Below, piece after piece: positions 9,468-41,553 of a stretch of DNA of 45,345 bases. The position numbers and the translations under genes are program-made. Position 1 is the first letter of the stretch. Every line of letters starts with the position of its first letter. The notes beneath the pieces are model-generated. The model had not been told where the DNA came from, searched no databases, and was given only the letters and a program-made list of their open reading frames with translations. The DNA lies in NCBI GenBank assembly GCA_946405625.1, contig CAMJHQ010000029.1, forward strand, positions 1 through 45,345, read 5' to 3'. This DNA is from an uncultured Lachnospiraceae bacterium. Lineage in GTDB: Bacteria; Bacillota; Clostridia; Lachnospirales; Lachnospiraceae.

Positions 9468-12400
9468 TTAACTCAAATGCTTCCTGCATTCACGGATACC
9501 GCAGATCTTTTCGTTTTCATATCCTGAATTTTCTTTTCCGTATTCATAGATTTCAATAGCTTTCTCATAATCACCGTCAAGCTCTGCATAAAGTGCAAGT
9601 CGGTCAGTCTTATCCACACAGAAGAAATATGAGCAATGTGAGCATTTCTTACATCCGTCAATCATATCAAGACATTCAAAAGCTTTTTCTTTCTCACCCA
9701 TCGCAAGGTAAATTCCGGAAAGCCTGCTGAGATAAAGCGGTCGATATCTCTTAAAATTAATATAATTATCAATCGAACCATGTGATTTCTCGATACACTC
9801 CAGAGCTTTTCGTCCTGCTTCAGCTGCCTTTTCGGCATTTCCCATAAACATGTATACTCTTCCGAGCAGATCATAAGCCTGACAGATATTATCATAATAT
9901 TTAATATCCGAATTATATTTTTTTCTTACATCCATACTTACATATTTTTCGTAGTAACGAGCTGCAATTTCCGGATTTCGATCGGTAAAAATATGATAAT
10001 GACCGACTGACCAGATTGCATCCAAAAAATCGTCCTGAATATCATCCGGTAGATCATTTATATCTCTGAAGAGATTTATTCTATCAATAAATGCCATATT
10101 TTCGGCTTCAATCTTATACATCTCATCTACTCTGTCTGCAATAGAATATGATGTTGCTATATCATACATATAGTCGATCAGATTCAAAAACTTCTCATCC
10201 GGAATATTCGGATATCTGTCAGCTATCTTACATACACTGAATTCTATATCATAATCACATTTTTCACCGGTGATCTCTTCTATTTTCTGTCTTATAGAAT
10301 TAACTCTGGCTTCAATCGCACCCTTGTAATCTGCTGATCTGTCATATAAGTCAGCCAATCTGTTATAGAATCGGAGTCCATGCTTATCAAATCTCTCCAT
10401 ATAGTTCTTATATTCCGCAACAGCCTCATCGAATCTGTTCTGTTTCTCGAAAAGATTTGCAAGATTGGTAAATGCAGCAAATCCATTCTTTCCCTTATAT
10501 ACATCAATTGCTTTTCTGAAATCCGCCTCAGCCTCTTCATATCTTTCGGTACGCATATATATAAGACCTCTGGCATTTATAACATACGGATCATCCGGAA
10601 AATCCTCTACAGCCTTATTCAGAAATTCCATAGCCTTATCATATTCCATGCCATCGATCAGAATAAGCGCATACTGTACAGCAGATCTTGCATCATAACG
10701 AAGATTGATAAGACTTTCTGCAACCGCAATAGCCTTCTCACTATATTCAGCTTCCTCGAGTTCCCTGAATCTGTAATCATTATAATAATCGGATAGTTCA
10801 TAATGAAGATTAACATTTCTCGGTGACTTCTTAAAACCGGACTCAAAGTAAGCTCCGGCTTTATTCGTATCTTCCTCTTTTTTATAGATCATTCCGATCT
10901 CGTAATCTACCGTGCCGTTGTTCGGGAATTTCTCAAGCATTTCCATATAAAGCGGCTTAAGATCATATCCGCTGTCATATCTTTCTCTGAAATCAACGTC
11001 CAGCCAATATGGGTTTATATTTCCATCATCGCATTTTTTTGCCTTATCAATAAGACTCAGTAATTTCTCTTTAAAATCTTCCTCGGAAATGTATTCCGGA
11101 TCCTGAGACTTCTTATCCATCATACAGTATCCGTAACTTACATAAAACTCGGATGGAAGCTCAAACATACTTGAATCTTCGTCTATACTGCCCTCAAGCA
11201 GATTAAACTTTACCAATGCCTCGTCATAGTTTTTCTTTGCACGAAGGTATTTTGCATAATTAAAATCAAGTCTGATATCCTTTACATCATTTTCCTTGAT
11301 AAACTCAAGACAAGTTTCAAAGCCTTCAAAGTCGTTATAATCAAGGTAAATGGTTTCTGCACGATAATATGAATCGGCATATTTCGGATCATTATATCTG
11401 AGATAGAAATAGTCCTCTATTACTTCTCTTGCATAATATGCCTTAAATGCCATATATTGCCTGTTGTCGTGGCAGATGGCAATATATTCATTTTCTTTCT
11501 CAATCTCTTTTGTCCAAAAATCTACGCCTTCTTCATATTCCTTACGCATTGCAAGTACGGCATCATACAGATTGGCATATTCATAATAATCACTGTCCAG
11601 ATTATACTTAAGTGCCTTAAGCACATTTTCCTTCGCATTATCTGTATCATTAATATTCAGATATAGTGCACCTAAAATATAATACGTATATGGAATTCTT
11701 AAAATATTTCTTACATCAGCGATAGAATAATCATCCAGATTATAGTCTGCATCGGGATCATATCTCTTACAAAGCTCATCCTTAAATTTGGTCATATAAG
11801 AAATGGCCTCTTCAAACTGATTTTGTCTCATAAAATAAGTTCCGATGAAATAATCATACATTAAAATCTCATCATCCACTGGATTTAAATCCTTGATGAG
11901 CTGATAACCTTCTTCCAGACGCTCATTTCTCGAATATATCCATGCAAGACTTATCTTAAGACTGTTATTCTCCGGATTCGCTTCGATCATTCCAGGCAGT
12001 TCTTCGAGCCTGTCATGCTCTATCTGCTTATTTATTAATTCATATACAGAACTGTTGCGATGATAATTCATCATATATGCGATGTAGTCATATGCAGTTT
12101 TTTTATCACCTTCAAGATAACTGCAAAGAGAAAGCACAGCATGGTTTTCATTTATATAGATAACTTTATTTGTCTTTGGAATAATCTCTTTACATTTCTT
12201 AAGCTTATCCTCAGATATAGAAATAGTCTTATCTGATATTTCCATATTTTTATGAGAATCCTGAACAAAGAATCTGAGATACATGAACATAATATGCGAA
12301 TTATAGTATTCCGCATGCTGTTCACCTGAAAGAATCCTGTCGACTGCCTTCGATACAAGCCCGAAACATTCAACATAACTCTCTTTATAGTATAAATACT

Positions 12401-13172
12401 TTATAAGTGCCAATTCTTCAAAGCAATGATAAAAATCATATTTTCTTACAAAAAGTAAATCTGCTCCGAGACGATCTATCAAAGCCGTTCTGGTTTCAGG
12501 AGGAACATTCATATTATCTATTGTTTCAAACTCAGCATAGAATTTCTGAAGCATTGAAATATATTCATCAACCTCATATTTAAACTTCCTTACTTCAGAA
12601 GGAGCCTGATCGGTTTCGATAACAAAATCATTTATATCATTGTTGCCGTTCTGTCTTCCGACAACAACCTGCTCATCCAGAATATAATTTCCATCATTAA
12701 CAGACTCCACCAGAAAATCTACATAATCCTTTGGATACTGTTCTTTAAGAGCTTCTGCATCCTGAACAATAGACATAACCTGATCTATCTTTTTCCAAAC
12801 ATAAACAGGATATTTTGAATTTTCCATGGCATAATTCAGGAAATCCGTTCTGATTGCTTCCTGCTCATCTATAGAATCAAATTCAGGTGCTGAGAAAAGT
12901 TCATTCCAGTAATTAATATCAGTTCTTTTACTGATATCTTTATAAATATCATTAATCCTCGACATTACTTCTGAAAGCTCTTCTTCCTCCTCTTCGGAAC
13001 CGGCTTCTGCAATACGGATTGCCTCATCATAAGCTTCTTTCAACGCCATGAAACCTTCCTGATCATCTTCAGGATTAGTTGACACAAGCTTTAATCTGTA
13101 AGCCTCTCTTATAGCTTCAACATCATCAGTTTTTTCAATTCCTAAAATATCCCAGATCAATTTTTCGTTCAT
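9468..13172 (-). CDS. Very large J-domain-like/TPR repeat protein
   Basis: The protein has 1234 residues from the ATG at 13172, which has AAGGTGG upstream; an in-frame ATG 48 bp earlier lacks a good site. Residues 1-55 (MNEKLIWDILGIEKTDDVEAIREAYR...FMALKEAYDEAI) have the helix pattern of a J-domain, but the HPD tripeptide is replaced by NPED. The rest is made of TPR-type helical pairs, clearest in the C-terminal half (EYDKAMEFLNKAVEDFPDD, RYEEAEADFRKAIDVY). A cysteine knuckle CKKCSHCSYFFC lies near residue 1175 and may bind zinc. It is cytosolic with no signal peptide. It probably scaffolds proteins; whether it recruits DnaK is doubtful without HPD. It is a single-gene unit with its own strong promoter. 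Confidence 0.8.
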   Translation of the reverse strand: MNEKLIWDILGIEKTDDVEAIREAYRLKLVSTNPEDDQEGFMALKEAYDEAIRIAEAGSEEEEEELSEVMSRINDIYKDISKRTDINYWNELFSAPEFDSIDEQEAIRTDFLNYAMENSKYPVYVWKKIDQVMSIVQDAEALKEQYPKDYVDFLVESVNDGNYILDEQVVVGRQNGNNDINDFVIETDQAPSEVRKFKYEVDEYISMLQKFYAEFETIDNMNVPPETRTALIDRLGADLLFVRKYDFYHCFEELALIKYLYYKESYVECFGLVSKAVDRILSGEQHAEYYNSHIMFMYLRFFVQDSHKNMEISDKTISISEDKLKKCKEIIPKTNKVIYINENHAVLSLCSYLEGDKKTAYDYIAYMMNYHRNSSVYELINKQIEHDRLEELPGMIEANPENNSLKISLAWIYSRNERLEEGYQLIKDLNPVDDEILMYDYFIGTYFMRQNQFEEAISYMTKFKDELCKRYDPDADYNLDDYSIADVRNILRIPYTYYILGALYLNINDTDNAKENVLKALKYNLDSDYYEYANLYDAVLAMRKEYEEGVDFWTKEIEKENEYIAICHDNRQYMAFKAYYAREVIEDYFYLRYNDPKYADSYYRAETIYLDYNDFEGFETCLEFIKENDVKDIRLDFNYAKYLRAKKNYDEALVKFNLLEGSIDEDSSMFELPSEFYVSYGYCMMDKKSQDPEYISEEDFKEKLLSLIDKAKKCDDGNINPYWLDVDFRERYDSGYDLKPLYMEMLEKFPNNGTVDYEIGMIYKKEEDTNKAGAYFESGFKKSPRNVNLHYELSDYYNDYRFRELEEAEYSEKAIAVAESLINLRYDARSAVQYALILIDGMEYDKAMEFLNKAVEDFPDDPYVINARGLIYMRTERYEEAEADFRKAIDVYKGKNGFAAFTNLANLFEKQNRFDEAVAEYKNYMERFDKHGLRFYNRLADLYDRSADYKGAIEARVNSIRQKIEEITGEKCDYDIEFSVCKIADRYPNIPDEKFLNLIDYMYDIATSYSIADRVDEMYKIEAENMAFIDRINLFRDINDLPDDIQDDFLDAIWSVGHYHIFTDRNPEIAARYYEKYVSMDVRKKYNSDIKYYDNICQAYDLLGRVYMFMGNAEKAAEAGRKALECIEKSHGSIDNYINFKRYRPLYLSRLSGIYLAMGEKEKAFECLDMIDGCKKCSHCSYFFCVDKTDRLALYAELDGDYEKAIEIYEYGKENSGYENEKICGIRECRKHLS

Positions 13173-13232
13173 AATCCACCTTCTATAAAATGTAATATTC
13201 CGCTCGCTTGTTATAATCACAATGATAATAAC

Positions 13233-32133: not shown

Positions 32134-32164
32134 AAAAAAACCTGTGAATGAAATTTCACAGGTT
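32134..32164 (-). terminator. Intrinsic terminator of the TelA operon
   Basis: CCTGTGAA (32141-32148) and TTCACAGG (32155-32162) form the stem. On the minus strand it is followed by TTTTTTTAA. Confidence 0.88.
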
Positions 32165-32172
32165 TATAGTGA

Positions 32173-33231
32173 TTATTTATCCGAACCGGTCGATGCCAGA
32201 TAAAGTCTGCTCTTCATCTCTTCATCGATTCTCGCAAGTTCCTGCTCTGCCTTAAAACGTTTAAGCTTTCCTTCCTGCTGAATCTTTGAAATGTCATCCA
32301 GACTCTCGATAAGTATACGGTTAGCCTCGCCGATTGCCTTCGGATCTATGTTATTTTCATTTCTCGCCTTCTGAGTTTCTACAGAAAGCATCTTCAGATT
32401 TTGAGCATTTTTGATAAGCAGCTGATTCGACATATCCGTCAGCTTTTTATCTGCCGCAATAGCAGCCCTTGTATGCTCGGTTCCGAAAGCGATAACAATC
32501 TGATTCTTCCAAAGCGGTATAACCGTGTAAAGAGTTGTCTGAAGCTTATCAGCCATGGCAACTGCATTTGCCTGAAGCATTCTGATCTGCGGTGCCTGCT
32601 GAAGAGAAATAGACCTTGTTGTCTCAAGTTCCATAATCTTTCTTTCCAGTCTGTCGATAATATCGGGAATGATATCTGCACAGTCAGCCGGATATTTTCC
32701 TTCCTTAATCTGCTCAAGCTTATCTTTTGCCGCTGCTATCTTCAGATTAACCTGCTTGAAATACTCCTGATTCATCTTATATATCTGGTCAAGCATAGCA
32801 GTATCCTTCATCAGTCTTACCTGATGCGCCTCCAGAGAGCTTTCTATCTTATCAACATTTCGGGAAATTCTGTCATACTTATTCTGAAGGGTAAGCTCTT
32901 TCGATTTGGACTTAGACTTATTCTTCCATGGAAAGATGCTTTTTTTCTCTTCGTCATCATCCTGATCATCGTTTTCAGACAGATATTCGACAGTCTGGTC
33001 TATTGTATCACTGATCTCATCGACATTTGTTTCTCCGACACTTTTGATCATCATTTCTGAAAGCTCAGCCATTTTCTTCTGAATATCAGCACCGTATAAA
33101 GTAATACTATTTGCCTGACTTAGATCCAAGAGCTGCTTATTCGACTGTAATGATTCTTTATCTTCCTCATCCAGATAAAACTCCGGATTTTCTGTTAATT
33201 GTCTGAGTAACGTCAGATCATCCATTTCCAT
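32173..33231 (-). CDS. TelA-family toxic-anion-resistance protein
   Basis: The protein has 352 residues. It matches the TelA family, named for tellurite resistance. An acidic/basic linker (about 85-110, EKKSIFPWKNKSKSKSKE) is followed by a long helical coiled coil with NKYDRISRNVDKIESSLEAHQVRLMKDTAMLD and PLWKNQIVIAFG, the most conserved family block. It is cytosolic or membrane-associated and helical. The ATG overlaps the stop of the previous gene (TAATG), so translation is coupled. The molecular action of TelA is not established; here it is the last gene of a six-gene unit with an AAA+ ATPase. Confidence 0.88.
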   Translation of the reverse strand: MEMDDLTLLRQLTENPEFYLDEEDKESLQSNKQLLDLSQANSITLYGADIQKKMAELSEMMIKSVGETNVDEISDTIDQTVEYLSENDDQDDDEEKKSIFPWKNKSKSKSKELTLQNKYDRISRNVDKIESSLEAHQVRLMKDTAMLDQIYKMNQEYFKQVNLKIAAAKDKLEQIKEGKYPADCADIIPDIIDRLERKIMELETTRSISLQQAPQIRMLQANAVAMADKLQTTLYTVIPLWKNQIVIAFGTEHTRAAIAADKKLTDMSNQLLIKNAQNLKMLSVETQKARNENNIDPKAIGEANRILIESLDDISKIQQEGKLKRFKAEQELARIDEEMKSRLYLASTGSDK

Positions 33232-34163
33232 TAACCTCCATTCGGTATATTTATTCCCTCATCGGTATATACCGGTATTACTATCTTATCACTTAAATTT
33301 ATACACTTAAGAAATGCATCCGCATCCTCATATATATTTTCACCGCGGATATTCATCTCACTCGGAGAACCGATATATATATCGGAATCATTAAAATCCA
33401 TGATCATCCTGGTCATTTTTTCATCCATAACAACGCCGTAGCTTAAGCCCCATCCGTCTTTAAACGGCATTGACTCCTTAATCCTGCAAAGAATCCTTCT
33501 GACAAATTCCTTTCCGCACATAGGAAAATAACACAGTCTCGGCATAAGCGACTGTCCGGCTTTTTTAAGCATGATCTCACATCTGAAAACTTCGGATTCC
33601 ATACTGCAGACCTCAAATATCCTGAAATCCACCATGTAATTATTCATTTCCAAAAGCTTTACAAGATTGAGAGCTATGATACCTCTGTTTCTGATCTGTG
33701 CTTCTGTTGTTCTGGATTCAAAGGTTACCTTCATCCATATTCTGACCAGCTTCTTCTCTTCGGATTTTTCAAGTCTGTACATAGCCTTCGGTGCATCCGC
33801 CAAATATGCGGGTATATTCGGTCTGTGGCCGACAAAAGAAGTAACCGTCTTACGAACTCTGGCTTTTTTCTTATTAACTCTTTCCAATTGATCTGCCAGC
33901 CTAAGGAATTGATCATAGTCCTTGCTGTAGCCGCCTATGCAATATTTTATTGATTCTTCCAGTGGTGCACCCGCAAACTCGACACTCGATGTTTTGCTTT
34001 TCTGTTCATAGAATATCTCAGAATTAATATCCGGATCTTTACTCAGAAAAGTCTGAACCTCGCCTATGGAATTAAAATGCATTCTATATTCCTTCAGACT
34101 AGATTTTCTTTCGATTATCTCGAGATACATGCACTCTTCAGGGCTGACCCCTAAACCATACAT
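33231..34163 (-). CDS. Phage-type protein resembling DUF7192
   Basis: The protein has 310 residues and is soluble. The stretch VGHRPNIPAYLADAPKAMYR, then NRGIIALNLVKLLEMNNYMVDFRIFEV, then MLKKAGQSLMPRLCYFPMCGKEFVRRILCR matches the layout I remember for phage and plasmid proteins of the DUF7192 type, which occur near CobS-like ATPases. The function is unknown. It starts 3 bp after the AAA+ stop and its stop overlaps the telA start. That coupling suggests a fixed protein ratio in a complex. Family assignment from memory only. Confidence 0.55.
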   Translation of the reverse strand: MYGLGVSPEECMYLEIIERKSSLKEYRMHFNSIGEVQTFLSKDPDINSEIFYEQKSKTSSVEFAGAPLEESIKYCIGGYSKDYDQFLRLADQLERVNKKKARVRKTVTSFVGHRPNIPAYLADAPKAMYRLEKSEEKKLVRIWMKVTFESRTTEAQIRNRGIIALNLVKLLEMNNYMVDFRIFEVCSMESEVFRCEIMLKKAGQSLMPRLCYFPMCGKEFVRRILCRIKESMPFKDGWGLSYGVVMDEKMTRMIMDFNDSDIYIGSPSEMNIRGENIYEDADAFLKCINLSDKIVIPVYTDEGINIPNGG

Positions 34164-34166
34164 ACA

Positions 34167-36299
34167 TTAACCCCTTCTTGTACTGATCATATCGGAAAAT
34201 ACTCTGTATATTCTATCAGCTTCACCATATTCCGACACATGCTGCCTTATAAAATCTTCAATAAATGCAAGATATGTAATATCCTTTGTCTGTATAAACT
34301 CATATTCGAGTATCTGTTTCATATCGAAACTTTGATTATCATTATACTTTTTAATACGCGTCGCATCTCTCGTCGTAATAATACCCGGCGCATCTCCATA
34401 GTTCTTTCTTCCCCACTCATCAGTAGCCATTCTGAAAAGCACAACGAAATCATACCAATCCGGATAATCTGCCAGAATCTGCTTTTCAACCTCATTATCA
34501 TATCCGATATAAATAGGTGTAAATCTCTGCTGTACGGATTCTTCGATTTTCTCTCTTGAATTGTAATTGCTGTCGGCACCGTTACCGTCAGTATTTCCCG
34601 CACCGATTATCCTGAAATTAGGATGACGCTTTACATTTTCTCCGTTTGGAAAACTATAGCTTGCATCTTTAAGGTTCGAAAGGAAGGAATTAAGCTTTAC
34701 AGTAGCCCTGCTGTTTCCGTTATCCAGCTCATCGCAGAAGGCAATCTTTCCATACTTATAGCATCTGTAGAAGTTAGGGCGGCTGTATCCGCCGTTAGCT
34801 GTCTGGAAGCCGAGGATATCATACTCCTCATTTATATATCCAATATCAATAAATGCCATATCCAGAATTTTTGCAATCTGTGAAACCATATAAGTTTTAC
34901 CGCATCCTGACGGTCCGATAAGATATGGATTAGCATTTTCCATGACAGCCGTAAGAACATCATCAAACATCTTATGGAAATGCTCTCCCTCCGCGATCAT
35001 ATATGATTTCTTTTCCTTTACAGTTTCATATCTCTCGCTAAAAGGTATGGATTCATCAAGCAGTGGATTTACTCCCGGAATTTCTGTATCATCATCAGTT
35101 ACACTACCCTGAGATTCATACACCTTTGCATATGAATCATACGGACCTGAGTATGCAGGTACAGAGCTGTAACTGACTCCTGAGCCCTCCGCAGCCACTC
35201 CTGCCTTATTTGATGCCGTTGCCATCTGAACACCGGAAATCGGAGCATTAACTCTAACTTCAGCAGAGCTCTGTGTTCCAATCTCCAACTGTGTTATTCC
35301 TTCAGGCATCTCAAGCTTAACGGTATTGATTGTTTTTTCTGCAGCCTGTTTTAACTGAAGAAGTCTTTCTTCAGCTTCGGCAAATGTATCATCAAGCAGC
35401 TTCTTCTTCTCATAAAGAACTACCTTCTTCTGCTCAGCAACACAATCATCATATGCCTGCTTAAGCTTCTCATCTATAATGCTCAGCTCATATTGAGCTT
35501 TCTTAACCTCATCTTCACATAAGGTTTTTACGTCTTTTACGGAATTTCTTGATGTTGCATCAATTATTTTAACTCTTTCTTCAACAACCTTAGTCAGTTC
35601 AACAACCTTCTTATGAAGTACCTGAGCCATCTCGATCTTCCTTACAGAATCCAAAAGGACAGCTTCATTAACCTCATATATTCCTGCCATCCGACGGATC
35701 TTTTCGAGTTCCTCATCAACAGTTGTCTTTTTATCAGCGCTGCTCTGAATCTTCCAGGTTACATCTATCAGATTTGCCAGATAACATTCTTCGTCAAGAA
35801 AATAACTTCTCGCTTCAACCGCATATGGAATTACGAATGCATTTATAACTTCAATGTCATTAATCTTTACATTATTGACCCATTTCATGTAGTTGAATTT
35901 ATCGCTGAATATATCATATATTCGATCAATGAATAATCTTCTTGCTATAACACCGTCTTTATCAAACATTTCCAAGAAGATGGTAGTGAGATTCTCATAA
36001 TCAGGCGTCCTTTCCTCATAAGGAAACATTGCATCATACACCTTCTCACCATATGCCATAGTTTCAACATATTTATCCGAACGTATCGGGGAGCTTGTTA
36101 TCATTATATTAACGGCACTGGCATATAATTCAAAAGAATCAATTACCCTGTATTCCGGATGTTCCTTAAGATATAAAAAACGACTATATAAATCTTTATA
36201 TTCCGATCGAAGCAATAAGTTTTCGCGTAATATACGTTCTGTCGCATTAATTACATCATTTTCTTTGCCATCTTTACTTATTTTAGAAAAAATACCCAT
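34167..36299 (-). CDS. AAA+ ATPase of the CobS/MoxR (AAA_5) type with N-terminal coiled coil
   Basis: The protein has 710 residues. Residues 1-190 are helical and unrecognised, about 215-340 a charged coiled coil, and about 350-430 a low-complexity Ser/Ala/Gly linker. The AAA+ core has Walker A LIGPSGCGKTYM (about 465), Walker B KIAFCDELDNG (about 520), sensor 1 IIGAGNTDGNG (about 565) and an arginine-rich lid. CobS and MoxR ATPases are remodelling motors that usually pair with a VWA protein; none is found here. It starts 3 bp after the preceding stop. It is likely the motor of this operon. Confidence 0.85.
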   Translation of the reverse strand: MGIFSKISKDGKENDVINATERILRENLLLRSEYKDLYSRFLYLKEHPEYRVIDSFELYASAVNIMITSSPIRSDKYVETMAYGEKVYDAMFPYEERTPDYENLTTIFLEMFDKDGVIARRLFIDRIYDIFSDKFNYMKWVNNVKINDIEVINAFVIPYAVEARSYFLDEECYLANLIDVTWKIQSSADKKTTVDEELEKIRRMAGIYEVNEAVLLDSVRKIEMAQVLHKKVVELTKVVEERVKIIDATSRNSVKDVKTLCEDEVKKAQYELSIIDEKLKQAYDDCVAEQKKVVLYEKKKLLDDTFAEAEERLLQLKQAAEKTINTVKLEMPEGITQLEIGTQSSAEVRVNAPISGVQMATASNKAGVAAEGSGVSYSSVPAYSGPYDSYAKVYESQGSVTDDDTEIPGVNPLLDESIPFSERYETVKEKKSYMIAEGEHFHKMFDDVLTAVMENANPYLIGPSGCGKTYMVSQIAKILDMAFIDIGYINEEYDILGFQTANGGYSRPNFYRCYKYGKIAFCDELDNGNSRATVKLNSFLSNLKDASYSFPNGENVKRHPNFRIIGAGNTDGNGADSNYNSREKIEESVQQRFTPIYIGYDNEVEKQILADYPDWYDFVVLFRMATDEWGRKNYGDAPGIITTRDATRIKKYNDNQSFDMKQILEYEFIQTKDITYLAFIEDFIRQHVSEYGEADRIYRVFSDMISTRRG

Positions 36300-36302
36300 A
36301 AA

Positions 36303-37466
36303 TCACACACTCTTTCTTTCACATATAATATACTTACCTTCAAGTTCTTCTATGTATCTGCTTCCCGTCCCCGTAAGGAAAGTACTTTGAACATATTCTT
36401 TGTTATCACTGAGATTTATAAATCTGAAAGCTTCATTCTTAAGAATAAGCCCGGACTTCAGACTTTTTATCTCCGACCATCCTCTGATATCTGCATATGA
36501 TGCATCCTGCCATAGGAAAACTCCGCAAAATGTCTTTACTTCCACCTCATCGGATGAATCGGCGATGTCATAAAGAAGATATGTCAGCCCCATCGGAAGT
36601 TCATAAACGGCACATGGTTTTAATCCTTCCGGAAGTAACCATTTGGAAAGCACAGAAACATGATCCTCTATCTTTGATTCTTCTGTAAATGTATTATCAT
36701 ATGTATTTACATCATAGAATATCTGCTCGCCGTTTTTACGAATCTCGTGCATCTCGAGGAGATTATCTTTACTAAACTTAAACTGACTGCTTCCTTCTAT
36801 TTCTTCAGACTCGGATTTATATGAAACAGACAGCACATCATCAAACAAGTTCACATTTATGAGAAGATCTCCATGTTCTGTCATACAACCGTTTACTTTA
36901 ATGGAAAATGTACTTTCGTTTATCTCAAAAACCTTGAAAAAAATCGTACGATTCTCTGAACCTACATGTATCAGCAGTCTTCCTGCTCCTCGCCATCCTC
37001 TTTTAATATCAATGATATCCACATCCGTCCCCATCGTCTTATATAATCCGACGATCAGATACTCGACGAGCGGCTCAAAACGTCTGCTAAGCGTAGATGA
37101 ATTAACTAAAACCGGCATATCAAGCTTTTCCGAATCATAATATTTGCTTAAAATGGATTCATGTCTAGGAACCTTTCCGGCTTCCATAATCTGCCGGGTG
37201 GTATCATCCATAATTATCGAATCATTGTCCTCGGTAGTGTTATACACCTGGAAAATTTTATTTACAAAAGCAGTAAAACAATGATCGTTTTCTGTATAAT
37301 TTAGTTTTTCATTATCGCCATAATTGATCAGCGCCGACGTAACACCATACTTACCGCCGATACCGGACGTACCCGTCAGATCATAGATATGGACCATCTT
37401 TATATCTTTTATACCTTCAATAAACATCTCTTCCTGAGACATTTTTCTGAATACAGGCTTTATCAT
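36303..37466 (-). CDS. Uncharacterised protein of the TelA/AAA+ operon
   Basis: The protein has 387 residues. I do not recognise it. It is acidic and soluble, with no signal or membrane segment, and mostly alternating beta strands (GRLLIHVGSENRTIFFKVFEINESTFSIKVNG; GLTYLLYDIADSSDEVEVKTFCGVFLWQ). The N-terminal KYGVTSALINYGDNEKLNYT is Gly/Asn-rich. No VWA metal site (DxSxS) is seen. It starts 31 bp after the methyltransferase-like gene and ends 3 bp before the AAA+ gene, so it is presumably a partner or substrate adaptor. Confidence 0.8.
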   Translation of the reverse strand: MIKPVFRKMSQEEMFIEGIKDIKMVHIYDLTGTSGIGGKYGVTSALINYGDNEKLNYTENDHCFTAFVNKIFQVYNTTEDNDSIIMDDTTRQIMEAGKVPRHESILSKYYDSEKLDMPVLVNSSTLSRRFEPLVEYLIVGLYKTMGTDVDIIDIKRGWRGAGRLLIHVGSENRTIFFKVFEINESTFSIKVNGCMTEHGDLLINVNLFDDVLSVSYKSESEEIEGSSQFKFSKDNLLEMHEIRKNGEQIFYDVNTYDNTFTEESKIEDHVSVLSKWLLPEGLKPCAVYELPMGLTYLLYDIADSSDEVEVKTFCGVFLWQDASYADIRGWSEIKSLKSGLILKNEAFRFINLSDNKEYVQSTFLTGTGSRYIEELEGKYIICERKSV

Positions 37467-37497
37467 ATTTAATCCCCATCACATATACACTTATTTA

Positions 37498-38334
37498 TTA
37501 TTTTGAACAGACTTGAATCAGCATATCATATACGATTCCTTCCGCACGGTTGAAATACCATTTCAAATGTGTTTCGAACGGATTCATATACTCCCTGACA
37601 TATGAAATACACTGTACTGCGCCTTCTACAGGACTTTCCGGATTATATTCATTTCCGAAAATTACATTTTTTCGTGCAGCACGGCTAAGTGCACTATTGA
37701 TGATCGGAATAACCCGATCATTCATATCACATATCATCTTCTCTGCTTCAGATTCTAAATCATTAACATTCGTTATTATACCATATAGACTGTTTACGAG
37801 CGACCTTATAAAGAATAATAGTGTAGAAAACATCTGGCTATAAACTCCGGAACAGATCAGCACATCAACCGAAGCTTCAGGGATGAGTTTCAGAAGCTCT
37901 TCCTCATTTCGTATCATCTTCGATTTTAATACATCGATGCACTGAATCATCCGTGTCCTAAAATTTTCAGATGTTATTCCGCCTCCTTCTCTTCTGGCAA
38001 AATCAAGAAGGTTCTCGCAGAATTCTTCCATATCATCTTCATATATTCCTGTAAGAGATACACACTTATACTCTATCTTCTCTCGAAGATTTTCAGGAAG
38101 TTTCTCAATCGCATCATTCACAGAATCCTCATCAACATCTATGCAGATTACTTTTTCCGTTTCCGATGAAATCTCATATAGGTCAATATCATTACATCGG
38201 CCTGCACCTATTATCATCACACTTTCTGGGTTCATTTCCAGAATAATCTCTGTCAACTCTGATCTATAAGAAGCCCAATCTTTATAAGCGTTTTTCATTA
38301 TGAATTTATCTTTTATCTGCTGATACACACTCAT
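37498..38334 (-). CDS. Rossmann-fold, methyltransferase-like protein
   Basis: The protein has 278 residues from the ATG at 38334, two bases after the upstream TGA (TGATCATG); a TTG two codons earlier is possible. There is no clear Shine-Dalgarno sequence, so coupled re-initiation is likely. VMIIGAGRCNDIDLYEI looks like the Gly-rich SAM loop, VICIDVDEDSV the acidic residue after strand 2, and VDVLICSGVYSQMF the motif IV position. The later helices differ from common methyltransferases, so catalysis is not certain. Confidence 0.65.
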   Translation of the reverse strand: MSVYQQIKDKFIMKNAYKDWASYRSELTEIILEMNPESVMIIGAGRCNDIDLYEISSETEKVICIDVDEDSVNDAIEKLPENLREKIEYKCVSLTGIYEDDMEEFCENLLDFARREGGGITSENFRTRMIQCIDVLKSKMIRNEEELLKLIPEASVDVLICSGVYSQMFSTLLFFIRSLVNSLYGIITNVNDLESEAEKMICDMNDRVIPIINSALSRAARKNVIFGNEYNPESPVEGAVQCISYVREYMNPFETHLKWYFNRAEGIVYDMLIQVCSK

Positions 38335-38336
38335 GA

Positions 38337-39626
38337 TCAATTTACATTAATAACAAAAGATTTCTTCTGCTTTACTCCCTTAGAATCACACTTAATGATA
38401 GTAATCTTAAAATCACCGCTATTTGAAACACATACACAATCCTGAGCTTTGCAGGTTTCACCTATATCTATTTCTTTCGGATAATCATCTACCATGGCAG
38501 GATAATCCCTTCCTACCATTCCGTGGCTGTCAACAACCATATCTGAAAGTGTCATATAAAGTCCATAAACATACTTATCATCATAACCCAGATTCTTATA
38601 TGTATAATCAATTTTATAGACTGCTTCATAACCATTTTCATTTATATCGATACCATCTTCCACTGTCGAAACTCCGTCAATGGTAATCGACCATTCATTT
38701 TCGACCGTCCAAGTATCACCGATATGCAATACATCAGAATTTTCCCAATCTGCTTTAGGATCAGCCGGTCCAAATGCAGGTATCGGTATACCATCTGCAC
38801 ATACTTCCGGATCGATAATAAAACTTTGTTTATATAACTCACTGTTACTGTCATATAAGTAAAGTATTGAGGTAAATGTGCCATCATTATCAAGACCTAC
38901 AAAGGTACTGCAAAAACAGGTTGCCCCCACAGGTGCATACTTAGGAGATTGTTTTGAACTGAGCGGATAAGAATAACCGTCCTTTCCGGCACTATCGACA
39001 ACATTGGAGTCAAATAATACATAGAGTCCGTCATTATATTCACTTTCATAGCCCAAATTTGTATACATGTATGTTATCTCATATACGGCAGCCGGTTCTT
39101 TATCTGAAAATTCATTACGCTCCTCAGTCTTTTTCGATCCAAGTAGAGTAACAGCCCACTGACCATCAACGATCCACGTTTCACCTACAAAATACTTCGA
39201 TTTAAACTCATCTCCGGTATTAAACTGATATGACTGTGTAGTATATTCTGTTGTTGCTTCAGTCGTTGATTCTTTTGCAGTCTGAGAATTACCTGTATCC
39301 TTTTTATTAAATATAACAACAAGAATAATAGTAAGCAGAATGATTGCCGCTGCGGAGGATGCAATAATGATCATTGTTGATTTTTTTATCGGCGGCTGAA
39401 ACTGCTGATTATACTGTTGTCCGTACTGCTGTGACGGCTGGCTGCCCTGCAGCATCGGATTATATTTCTTAACATTCTTATGCAGATTCGGATCATTATA
39501 CATCATCGCCGGACCGCCTGCTCTCGGAACAAACCGATTTCTGTCAGCATTATCAATTACCCTGCCGCACATAGGGCAAGATTCGGCTGTATCTGAAATT
39601 TCCGATTCACAAATAGGACATTTCAT
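38337..39626 (-). CDS. Zinc-ribbon, single-pass membrane protein with duplicated outer domain
   Basis: The protein has 429 residues. A zinc ribbon lies at the N-terminus (C3-x2-C6, C17-x2-C20), then a Gln/Tyr/Pro-rich linker, one membrane segment (about 84-107), a Thr/Ser/Glu-rich stalk, and two repeats of about 115 residues (about 145-262 and 303-425). Each starts GxTWxVxxxWxxT and contains YxxxYxYxNLGYxxxYxxGLYxxxxxxVVDSxG, like DUF4352-type beta domains. So a cytosolic zinc domain is tied to an extracellular pair of domains, a sensor-like layout. Its leader carries 12-bp repeats. Confidence 0.8.
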   Translation of the reverse strand: MKCPICESEISDTAESCPMCGRVIDNADRNRFVPRAGGPAMMYNDPNLHKNVKKYNPMLQGSQPSQQYGQQYNQQFQPPIKKSTMIIIASSAAAIILLTIILVVIFNKKDTGNSQTAKESTTEATTEYTTQSYQFNTGDEFKSKYFVGETWIVDGQWAVTLLGSKKTEERNEFSDKEPAAVYEITYMYTNLGYESEYNDGLYVLFDSNVVDSAGKDGYSYPLSSKQSPKYAPVGATCFCSTFVGLDNDGTFTSILYLYDSNSELYKQSFIIDPEVCADGIPIPAFGPADPKADWENSDVLHIGDTWTVENEWSITIDGVSTVEDGIDINENGYEAVYKIDYTYKNLGYDDKYVYGLYMTLSDMVVDSHGMVGRDYPAMVDDYPKEIDIGETCKAQDCVCVSNSGDFKITIIKCDSKGVKQKKSFVINVN

Positions 39627-39780: not shown

Positions 39781-41553
39781 TTAAATGTTATTTAATCCCT
39801 CATGTGTATTCCTATATTCGTCCAATGTTTCTTTGAGTGACGCAAGTGAATTAGAAACAAGTGACGCAATCTGATCAGCAGCACTCTGATCATTGGCATT
39901 GAGTCTGAGAAGATTATTATATCTATATCTTCCCCAATCCTCTCTCTGTGGGATAATAGCCAGGCGAAGCGGATTATCTCCCAAAGCCTTAAAGAATCCG
40001 ACCTCCATACCCTTTCCGTTTCTGAGGGATATAAAAACATTTACACCGATTGTATATTCACTGATTCTTGAAAGATAATATTCAAATGAAACATCAAATC
40101 CAAGTTCAGTATTCCATGCATACCAACCTGATACATCGGAGTATTTAACACCTTCACGCTCTTTTCTTGGCATCCAGAGCGTAAACTTTCCGATATCAGT
40201 TAACATTTCAGCTGCTTCCTTAACAAGTTCCTTATTCTTATTTCTGTAATTCCATTCCTGTCCGTTTGCATCCAGATTATCGGATATATTATTAATCGAA
40301 GTGACAACCGAACATTTAAGAATAACAGTAAAATTTTTCAGTTCATCACCTGAAAGTCCATGATCTGAATCTGTCTGGAGTGCATCGAAAAAGTGAGGGA
40401 GAAATTTCTTTATTCTCTCAATTTCCTCTGTAGTATTCTGCGACGGCGTGAGACCGTATATTTCTTTTAAAGTATCATTTACAACATGTTCGTTACGGAG
40501 AGCCTTAAAGGAATCTTCGTCTATCCTCGTAGATGTAAAATACATATACAGCTTTTCAAAGCACATCTGCGTACAGATAATAGCAAAAAGAATTCTTCGC
40601 CTTAAACCTTCTTCAATATCATTAACAGTAGATTCAGTAACAATGTCCAGAAGCTCAAATGTATTAAACAGTCTCTTCATGCTTCTCGGATTAAATCCTA
40701 CGGATGACTGGATCAGATCATAGTACAGCCCTACTTCCTTATCATCAATCGTTTCACTGATCTGCTGCATCATATCACGAACATATTTATGAATGTCGTA
40801 ATTAGCAACCGGCACCTTGAAAGGAAGCTGTATTATCTTATCGAAAAAACTGCGTCCCTTTTCTTTTGATACATCATTTCCAAACTTCTGTTTTATACCA
40901 AGTGTAACCACCTCATAGTCTACTGCTAAAACAAATACACATCTGTCGCAATCCAGAAACAGTTTGAGAACCTCCAACAATTCAATTGCTTTCGCTGGCT
41001 GTAATCTGTCCAGATCATCTACGAAGATTACAACCCTGTCTCTATGTTCTTTTTCAAGTTTTGCATTTATTGCATCAAGAAACTGATCCTTAAGGTCTAT
41101 AATGCATGAGGCCACATCAATATCGACTCCGCCATCGATCGTATGACTGATAACATTTGTAATCTCTCCGCCAAACGTATAATCAGATACATTTCTTACG
41201 GCCCTTTTTCCAAAACCGATCAAGCCGCTGATTATTTTCCTCCTAAGGCTTTTTTCACAATCAAGCCCCTTCAGGATTACATCCATCATAGAAAAAACAA
41301 GTCCGTGCCCCATATCAAATTGCGAAAACTGCCACGTATTGAACCATATAGGCCATACTGATCCCTGCAGATTTGCCATCATCATGTTCATCAGACTTGT
41401 CTTACCACTTCCCCAGTCTCCCTGTACAGATATAGTCATCGGCGTCTCACAGCTTCTGATAAAGCTGCATAATGCGTTAACATATACTTCAACATTAAAA
41501 AGATCTTCGTTAATGTTAGAGACCGGTTTATCCGGATATCCCATCGTTTTCAT
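39781..41553 (-). CDS. KAP-family P-loop NTPase
   Basis: The protein has 590 residues. Walker A is SVQGDWGSGKTSLMN (residues 43-56) and Walker B VVIFVDDLDRLQPAKAIELLEVLK (about 171-190), the hallmark of KAP NTPases. No transmembrane insert is seen between the motifs, unlike many KAP proteins, so it is likely cytosolic or peripheral. Residues 300-590 are unrecognised and have mixed strands near the C-terminus. KAP proteins in bacteria occur in plasmids and in defence or stress loci. It starts with GGGGGAT upstream. It ends 155 bp before the zinc-ribbon gene, so it may be a separate unit or cotranscribed. Confidence 0.9.
   Translation of the reverse strand: MKTMGYPDKPVSNINEDLFNVEVYVNALCSFIRSCETPMTISVQGDWGSGKTSLMNMMMANLQGSVWPIWFNTWQFSQFDMGHGLVFSMMDVILKGLDCEKSLRRKIISGLIGFGKRAVRNVSDYTFGGEITNVISHTIDGGVDIDVASCIIDLKDQFLDAINAKLEKEHRDRVVIFVDDLDRLQPAKAIELLEVLKLFLDCDRCVFVLAVDYEVVTLGIKQKFGNDVSKEKGRSFFDKIIQLPFKVPVANYDIHKYVRDMMQQISETIDDKEVGLYYDLIQSSVGFNPRSMKRLFNTFELLDIVTESTVNDIEEGLRRRILFAIICTQMCFEKLYMYFTSTRIDEDSFKALRNEHVVNDTLKEIYGLTPSQNTTEEIERIKKFLPHFFDALQTDSDHGLSGDELKNFTVILKCSVVTSINNISDNLDANGQEWNYRNKNKELVKEAAEMLTDIGKFTLWMPRKEREGVKYSDVSGWYAWNTELGFDVSFEYYLSRISEYTIGVNVFISLRNGKGMEVGFFKALGDNPLRLAIIPQREDWGRYRYNNLLRLNANDQSAADQIASLVSNSLASLKETLDEYRNTHEGLNNI

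Follow-up and report, generated by a model that had tools for sequence, protein, structure and literature searches.

A conserved four-gene unit with an AAA+ motor, a DUF7192 protein and TelA in Lachnospiraceae and other gut bacteria

Among AAA+ motors with dedicated partners, CobS pairs with CobT and NorQ with NorD. The NorQD mechanism and the more general rule that MoxR motors go with VWA proteins have been set out in two papers (PMC13036017, PMC9976466). The locus described here resembles NorQ/NorD in that an AAA_5-type motor adjoins a partner with a predicted fold that finds its best matches among NorQ/NorD entries. However, this partner has neither a conserved MIDAS nor detectable profile similarity to CoxE-type VWA domains, the motor has a long N-terminal region, and TelA and a beta-rich protein are found in place of the nitric oxide reductase. 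The beta-rich protein, together with a weak bpMoxR profile match (5.5e-4, below the cut-off), also recalls the bpMoxR (MoxR-vWA-beta-propeller) systems, but it has no significant propeller match, and no canonical VWA protein is present in the unit.

Ter systems, reportedly the subject of 2012 work by Anantharaman and others, share TelA with this locus. They are reported to hold the VWA protein TerF as well, next to which TelA has been proposed to build structures beneath the membrane (PMC7824862), so the combination of TelA with a VWA protein has precedent. The unit differs in its AAA+ motor, DUF7192 protein and beta protein. The absence of TerD claimed in a first-pass annotation of this DNA extends to the whole genome of the window, which gave 0 TerD matches; on that ground we rejected a Ter system as the reading of this locus. 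A same-genus genome that lacks the unit carries a Ter-type locus, with seven TerD matches in 11 kb (G007:C8:24844-35814).

TelA is also common to the XpaC-TelA operon of Listeria (lmo1966-lmo1967), where the partner is XpaC instead of a motor and a DUF7192 protein. The mutant of the Listeria TelA homologue lmo1967 is 4-fold more susceptible to nisin and 2-fold more susceptible to tellurite (as cited in PMC12791056), and telA is described as a nisin-resistance gene in PMC8865564. PMC12791056 also links a TelA homologue to survival of exposure to agents that act on the cell wall, by a mechanism given as not known.

Layout and conservation of the unit

The window, a 45,345-bp stretch of a contig from an uncultured Lachnospiraceae bacterium, contains six closely spaced minus-strand ORFs. 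Their positions, gaps and overlap were all confirmed in the sequence, as was a terminator-like hairpin with a T run after telA, reading from 32165 to 32138.

38337-39626, minus strand: zinc-ribbon protein, one hydrophobic stretch (by eye); judged by homology a local neighbour
37498-38334, minus strand: methyltransferase-like protein, 2-bp gap to the zinc-ribbon gene, TGATCATG; judged by homology a local neighbour
36303-37466, minus strand: unit gene 1, beta protein, 387 aa; 31-bp gap to the methyltransferase-like gene
34167-36299, minus strand: unit gene 2, MoxR/CobS-like AAA+ ATPase, 710 aa; 3-bp gap to the beta gene
33231-34163, minus strand: unit gene 3, DUF7192 protein, 310 aa; 3-bp gap to the AAA+ gene
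32173-33231, minus strand: unit gene 4, TelA, 352 aa; 1-bp overlap with the DUF7192 gene, TAATG
32138-32165, minus strand: terminator-like hairpin and T run after telA
39781-41553, minus strand: KAP-family NTPase upstream of the six ORFs (Pfam 3.7e-36); partial QatA, PifA and PDC-S20 matches

In Pfam, TelA matches PF05816 (2.7e-66), the DUF7192 protein matches PF23822 (1.6e-11; 44.5 bits against a cut-off of 27), and the AAA+ protein matches AAA_5 (PF07728, 4.9e-9), which places it among the AAA_5/MoxR-group motors. The beta protein was assigned to no Pfam family, while the matches that suggest a methyltransferase (0.092) and a zinc ribbon (0.0014) both fall under the curated cut-offs. Elsewhere in the window, a strong sigma-70-like promoter (TTGACA-17-TATTAT, 32125-32097, minus strand) precedes an ABC transporter pair and is overlapped by an operator-like 20-bp inverted repeat (32107-32063, minus strand), and a TPR-repeat-rich protein of 1250 aa is encoded at 9468-13220 (minus strand).

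An alignment of the AAA+ protein was run against the genome_contigs collection via two conserved peptides, a search that remoter relatives would escape. It yielded 244 stretches, of which 88 were confirmed as relatives and 80 kept as loci. By title, the loci come mainly from Lachnospiraceae, Eubacterium, Ruminococcus and Oscillospiraceae; isolates among them are Eubacterium ruminantium ATCC 17233 and two strains of Ruminococcus albus. With the window added, the order beta protein, AAA+, DUF7192, TelA on a single strand is complete in 71 of 81 loci by profiles and clustering; in the remaining 10, the absent gene would fall past the contig end. The beta protein is the first gene in all 71 complete loci. 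At the other end, a short divergent TelA-like protein holds the place of TelA in 11 loci, 9 of them complete (the single one tested scores 1.2e-6 against TelA, slightly under the cut-off), and TelA is only about 200-250 aa long in many others, so the full-length protein is not needed everywhere. Three family genomes (G900, G1195 and G1012), which may overlap the 80 named loci, have AAA+, DUF7192 and TelA in order in short loci cut off within the AAA+ gene.

The four genes are tightly spaced, with median intergenic gaps of 3, -1 and 0.5 bp (starts chosen mechanically). The next gene lies on the same strand within 50 bp in 16 of 72 loci upstream and in 26 of 73 downstream, which frequently leaves space for a promoter dedicated to the unit. 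Beyond the four, no gene family appears at more than 15 of the 81 loci; this figure is a lower bound, given that many contigs are short and families are not fully annotated, and the commonest is an ABC ATPase cluster that includes the ABC gene of the window. The ordered four-gene unit is a real conserved system. The literature searched gave no description of it, and no paper on DUF7192 or on TelA with CobS and AAA; the unit reads as a variant of the MoxR-type motor-plus-adaptor theme that is apparently undescribed.

Twenty-three loci are present in all four alignments. In the 19 distant ones, median identity to the window is 39.0% for AAA+ and 39.9% for DUF7192, against 18.6% for the beta protein and 20.3% for TelA, as expected if motor and adaptor form the core. 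TelA is, however, the best conserved protein in the 4 near loci (80.7%) and the beta protein the least (67.2%), which tempers this reading where TelA is concerned.

The distribution of the unit is patchy, its AAA+ gene being found in 8 of 37 same-genus genomes including its own. PF23822 occurs in 2 of 391 class genomes (own included), and a profile built from the DUF7192 protein itself finds 4 of 397 family genomes (own included) and 1 of 398 phylum genomes (own only), so the unit is rare. TelA is found in 4 of 24 same-genus genomes, always inside the unit; in a fifth unit holder among these 24 (G020), the contig ends inside the AAA+ gene. Different genomes carry the unit at different chromosomal sites. 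Ten flank proteins from three relatives comprise TusA/rhodanese, NadA, MraW, ProC, histidine phosphatase and GDSL-like proteins, a LytTR regulator, a choline-binding surface protein, a SUKH-3 immunity-like protein and one protein without a match. The SUKH-3 gene (L033:13329-14594, 1.4e-9) lies just downstream of its unit on the opposite strand.

The motor, its DUF7192 partner and the beta protein

The N-terminal region of the AAA+ protein is long and looks coiled-coil by eye; Walker A (GPSGCGKT) lies at residues 462-469 and Walker B (FCDE) at residues 521-524. Sequence searches for solved relatives returned two generic ATPases for this protein and none for TelA. Among PHROGs families, the AAA+ protein matches phrog_249 (2.5e-34), labelled 'porphyrin biosynthesis', and the DUF7192 protein matches phrog_1909 (6e-19). 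We take the phage label to derive from CobS.

An AAA+ gene followed by a DUF7192 gene is present in five of the six phage regions fetched, from Staphylococcus phage Stab23, Lactobacillus phage 3-521 and Listeria phage P100 (all three Herelleviridae), Mycobacterium phage Silverleaf and Rhizobium phage RHph_X2_24. One or two small ORFs separate the genes in 3-521 and RHph_X2_24, and the other three pairs are direct; the sixth region, cr114_1, was left out of the pair test, since translation of its gene under table 11 runs into stops. The phage CobS-like AAA+ and DUF7192 proteins are homologous to those of the unit and have the same order, but the phage motors are shorter (253-404 aa versus 710 aa) and lack the long N-terminal region, and TelA is neither annotated in these regions nor matched among the neighbours scanned. 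The AAA+/DUF7192 pairing is common to bacteria and phages. The gene set of AAA+ motor, phage-type partner and TelA proposed at first pass is real and conserved. A scan of viral contigs with the DUF7192 alignment gave 13 stretches, none confirmed. One DUF7192 gene from a class-level genome (G348; L120:1447-2133) is nearer the phage profile (1.2e-28) and perhaps belongs to a prophage.

All 65 DUF7192 homologues match PF23822 and no other family, and neither this Pfam scan nor hhalign detected a VWA domain by sequence. In hhalign, DUF7192 against CoxE-type VWA (VWA domains only, 27 sequences) reached 0.3-0.7% probability, compared with 0.7% for the beta protein against VWA and 96.4% for VWA against VWA (positive control, two sequences). 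An earlier run on an alignment that included one wrong ORF (L126) gave 0.1-0.2%, with 0.0-0.6% for 30 column-shuffled controls and 0.1-0.4% for the other unit proteins. Because these scores lie within the control range, we dropped sequence proof of a VWA domain. The best match in a sequence search for solved relatives had an E of 0.17. The MIDAS positions are not conserved across the 65 homologues, with D in 4, S in 2 and S in 26.

The predicted DUF7192 model (mean pLDDT 87) resembles the NorD VWA domain. Its top three Foldseek matches are NorQ/NorD entries (probabilities 0.99, 0.92 and 0.84), although the best E is 1.6e-3, none reaches 0.001, and TM-scores are at most 0.34 in the listed rows. 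Judged by title, with chains unchecked, 27 of the 50 listed rows are VWA-holding entries (NorD, Ku, TRAP, complement Bb, vWF A1, Rea1/MDN1); Ras-like GTPases or F1-ATPase make up the remaining 23. Because this structural result and the independent gene pairing agree, we think that DUF7192 probably adopts a VWA-like fold. The first-pass statement that no VWA protein is present holds at the level of sequence families (the genome of the window has no match to VWA_CoxE, the only VWA family searched there), but the predicted fold makes the claim that the motor has no VWA partner doubtful.

The beta protein is modeled with a pLDDT of 91.5 as a helical N-terminal part followed by two series of antiparallel strands. 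It has no PDB match at E ≤0.001 and matches small ligand-binding beta-barrels weakly. Two viral structure matches (≤0.001) had TM-scores of 0.07-0.11 and were taken as meaningless; a resemblance to Ran-binding proteins in a sequence search of solved structures (best E 0.007) was taken as chance.

A proposed TelA-remodeling machine and its alternatives

By analogy, the unit fits the NorQD/MoxR-VWA scheme with DUF7192 as the adaptor. We hypothesize that the AAA+ protein would form a ring motor on which DUF7192, as a diverged, MIDAS-less VWA-like adaptor, may dock in the way that the NorD VWA docks on NorQ. TelA would then most likely serve as the substrate, or as an effector on the membrane side, and the beta protein could pick the substrate or sense a signal. 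Under envelope stress, the energy of ATP would be spent on building TelA assemblies at the envelope, dissolving them or moving them to new positions. To this model as a whole, in which a motor like NorQD acts through a cryptic VWA-like adaptor to remodel TelA assemblies, we give about an even chance. The strong conservation of TelA in near relatives is a poor fit to a fast-evolving client, and the short or divergent TelA forms, the negative profile comparison, the weak Foldseek scores and the non-conserved MIDAS also count against the model. A bolder and more tentative proposal, possible but in our estimate short of probable, is that AAA+ proteins with MIDAS-less VWA-like DUF7192 adaptors constitute a new class of machine common to phages and gut Bacillota, coupled in bacteria via the beta protein to TelA as the client of a dedicated motor.

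A function in anti-phage or inter-bacterial defence, in which the AAA+/DUF7192 pair would sense or disarm a phage step and TelA would alter the membrane against entry, is an unlikely alternative. It would suit the homology to the phage pair, the patchy distribution at different chromosomal sites and the role proposed for TelA, as a Ter component, in helping to block phage entry (PMC7824862). The upstream KAP NTPase with its partial defence-model matches and the SUKH-3 immunity-like gene adjoining one unit point the same way. However, in PADLOC none of the four unit proteins matches a system model strongly (best 0.0062). No known defence system was found among the ten flank proteins of the three relatives, nine of which have no PADLOC match while MraW cross-matches mad2. 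Nor was KAP found beside the unit in the same-genus regions L031-L037; among these seven, real room upstream is confined to the three of 20 kb, L031-L033. Gene context gives little help for a defence role.

We consider it improbable that the motor is a metal- or cofactor-insertion chaperone that matures an unlinked metalloprotein as NorQD and CobS/CobT do, with TelA as an accessory. NorD is the best structural match of the partner and the phage relatives are annotated as porphyrin biosynthesis, but no other gene family is frequent near the unit (15 of 81 loci at most; families not fully annotated), and the MIDAS residues that NorD requires for activity, according to PMC9976466, are not conserved in DUF7192. 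Lower still we rank a domesticated phage module, in which a pair from a phage assembly or takeover function would have joined two bacterial proteins and now serve a different pathway, cell division or cell-wall assembly for example. The phage pairs in regions with no TelA annotated or matched among the neighbours scanned are consistent with this, whereas the phage forms lack the N-terminal region of the bacterial motor.

The first-pass annotation grouped all six ORFs in one operon, of which only the four-gene order proved to be conserved across genomes. The zinc-ribbon and methyltransferase-like proteins have no match in L031-L037. Homologues of the zinc-ribbon protein (44-48% identity) lie away from the unit in two unit holders, one of them the genome of the window (G000 and G001). 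Those of the methyltransferase-like protein (52-55%; searched with 37498-38331, thus without the ATG) occur in five genus genomes that lack the unit; G017 has a remote homologue, and the unit holder G021 gave a short, weak match. Both proteins are local neighbours outside the conserved unit, and the membrane protein, once proposed as the sensor of the machine, is not a member. The short gaps in the window make co-transcription of the six genes possible in this strain, and the methyltransferase-like gene is possibly co-transcribed with the unit there, but a single conserved six-gene functional operon is contradicted by these homologues and by the absence of the extra genes beside the unit in L031-L033. 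Zinc-ribbon-like proteins also follow TelA in several distant loci (L068:14371-15978, L074:14267-15895 and L085:13639-15003), without implied homology to that of the window; the one in L074 adjoins a TPM-domain protein.

The strict genetic link between TelA and a dedicated motor opens a direct way into what TelA does. Should DUF7192 prove to be a VWA-like adaptor, the phage genes labelled 'porphyrin biosynthesis' would gain a better hypothesis and DUF7192, a domain of unknown function, a testable role.
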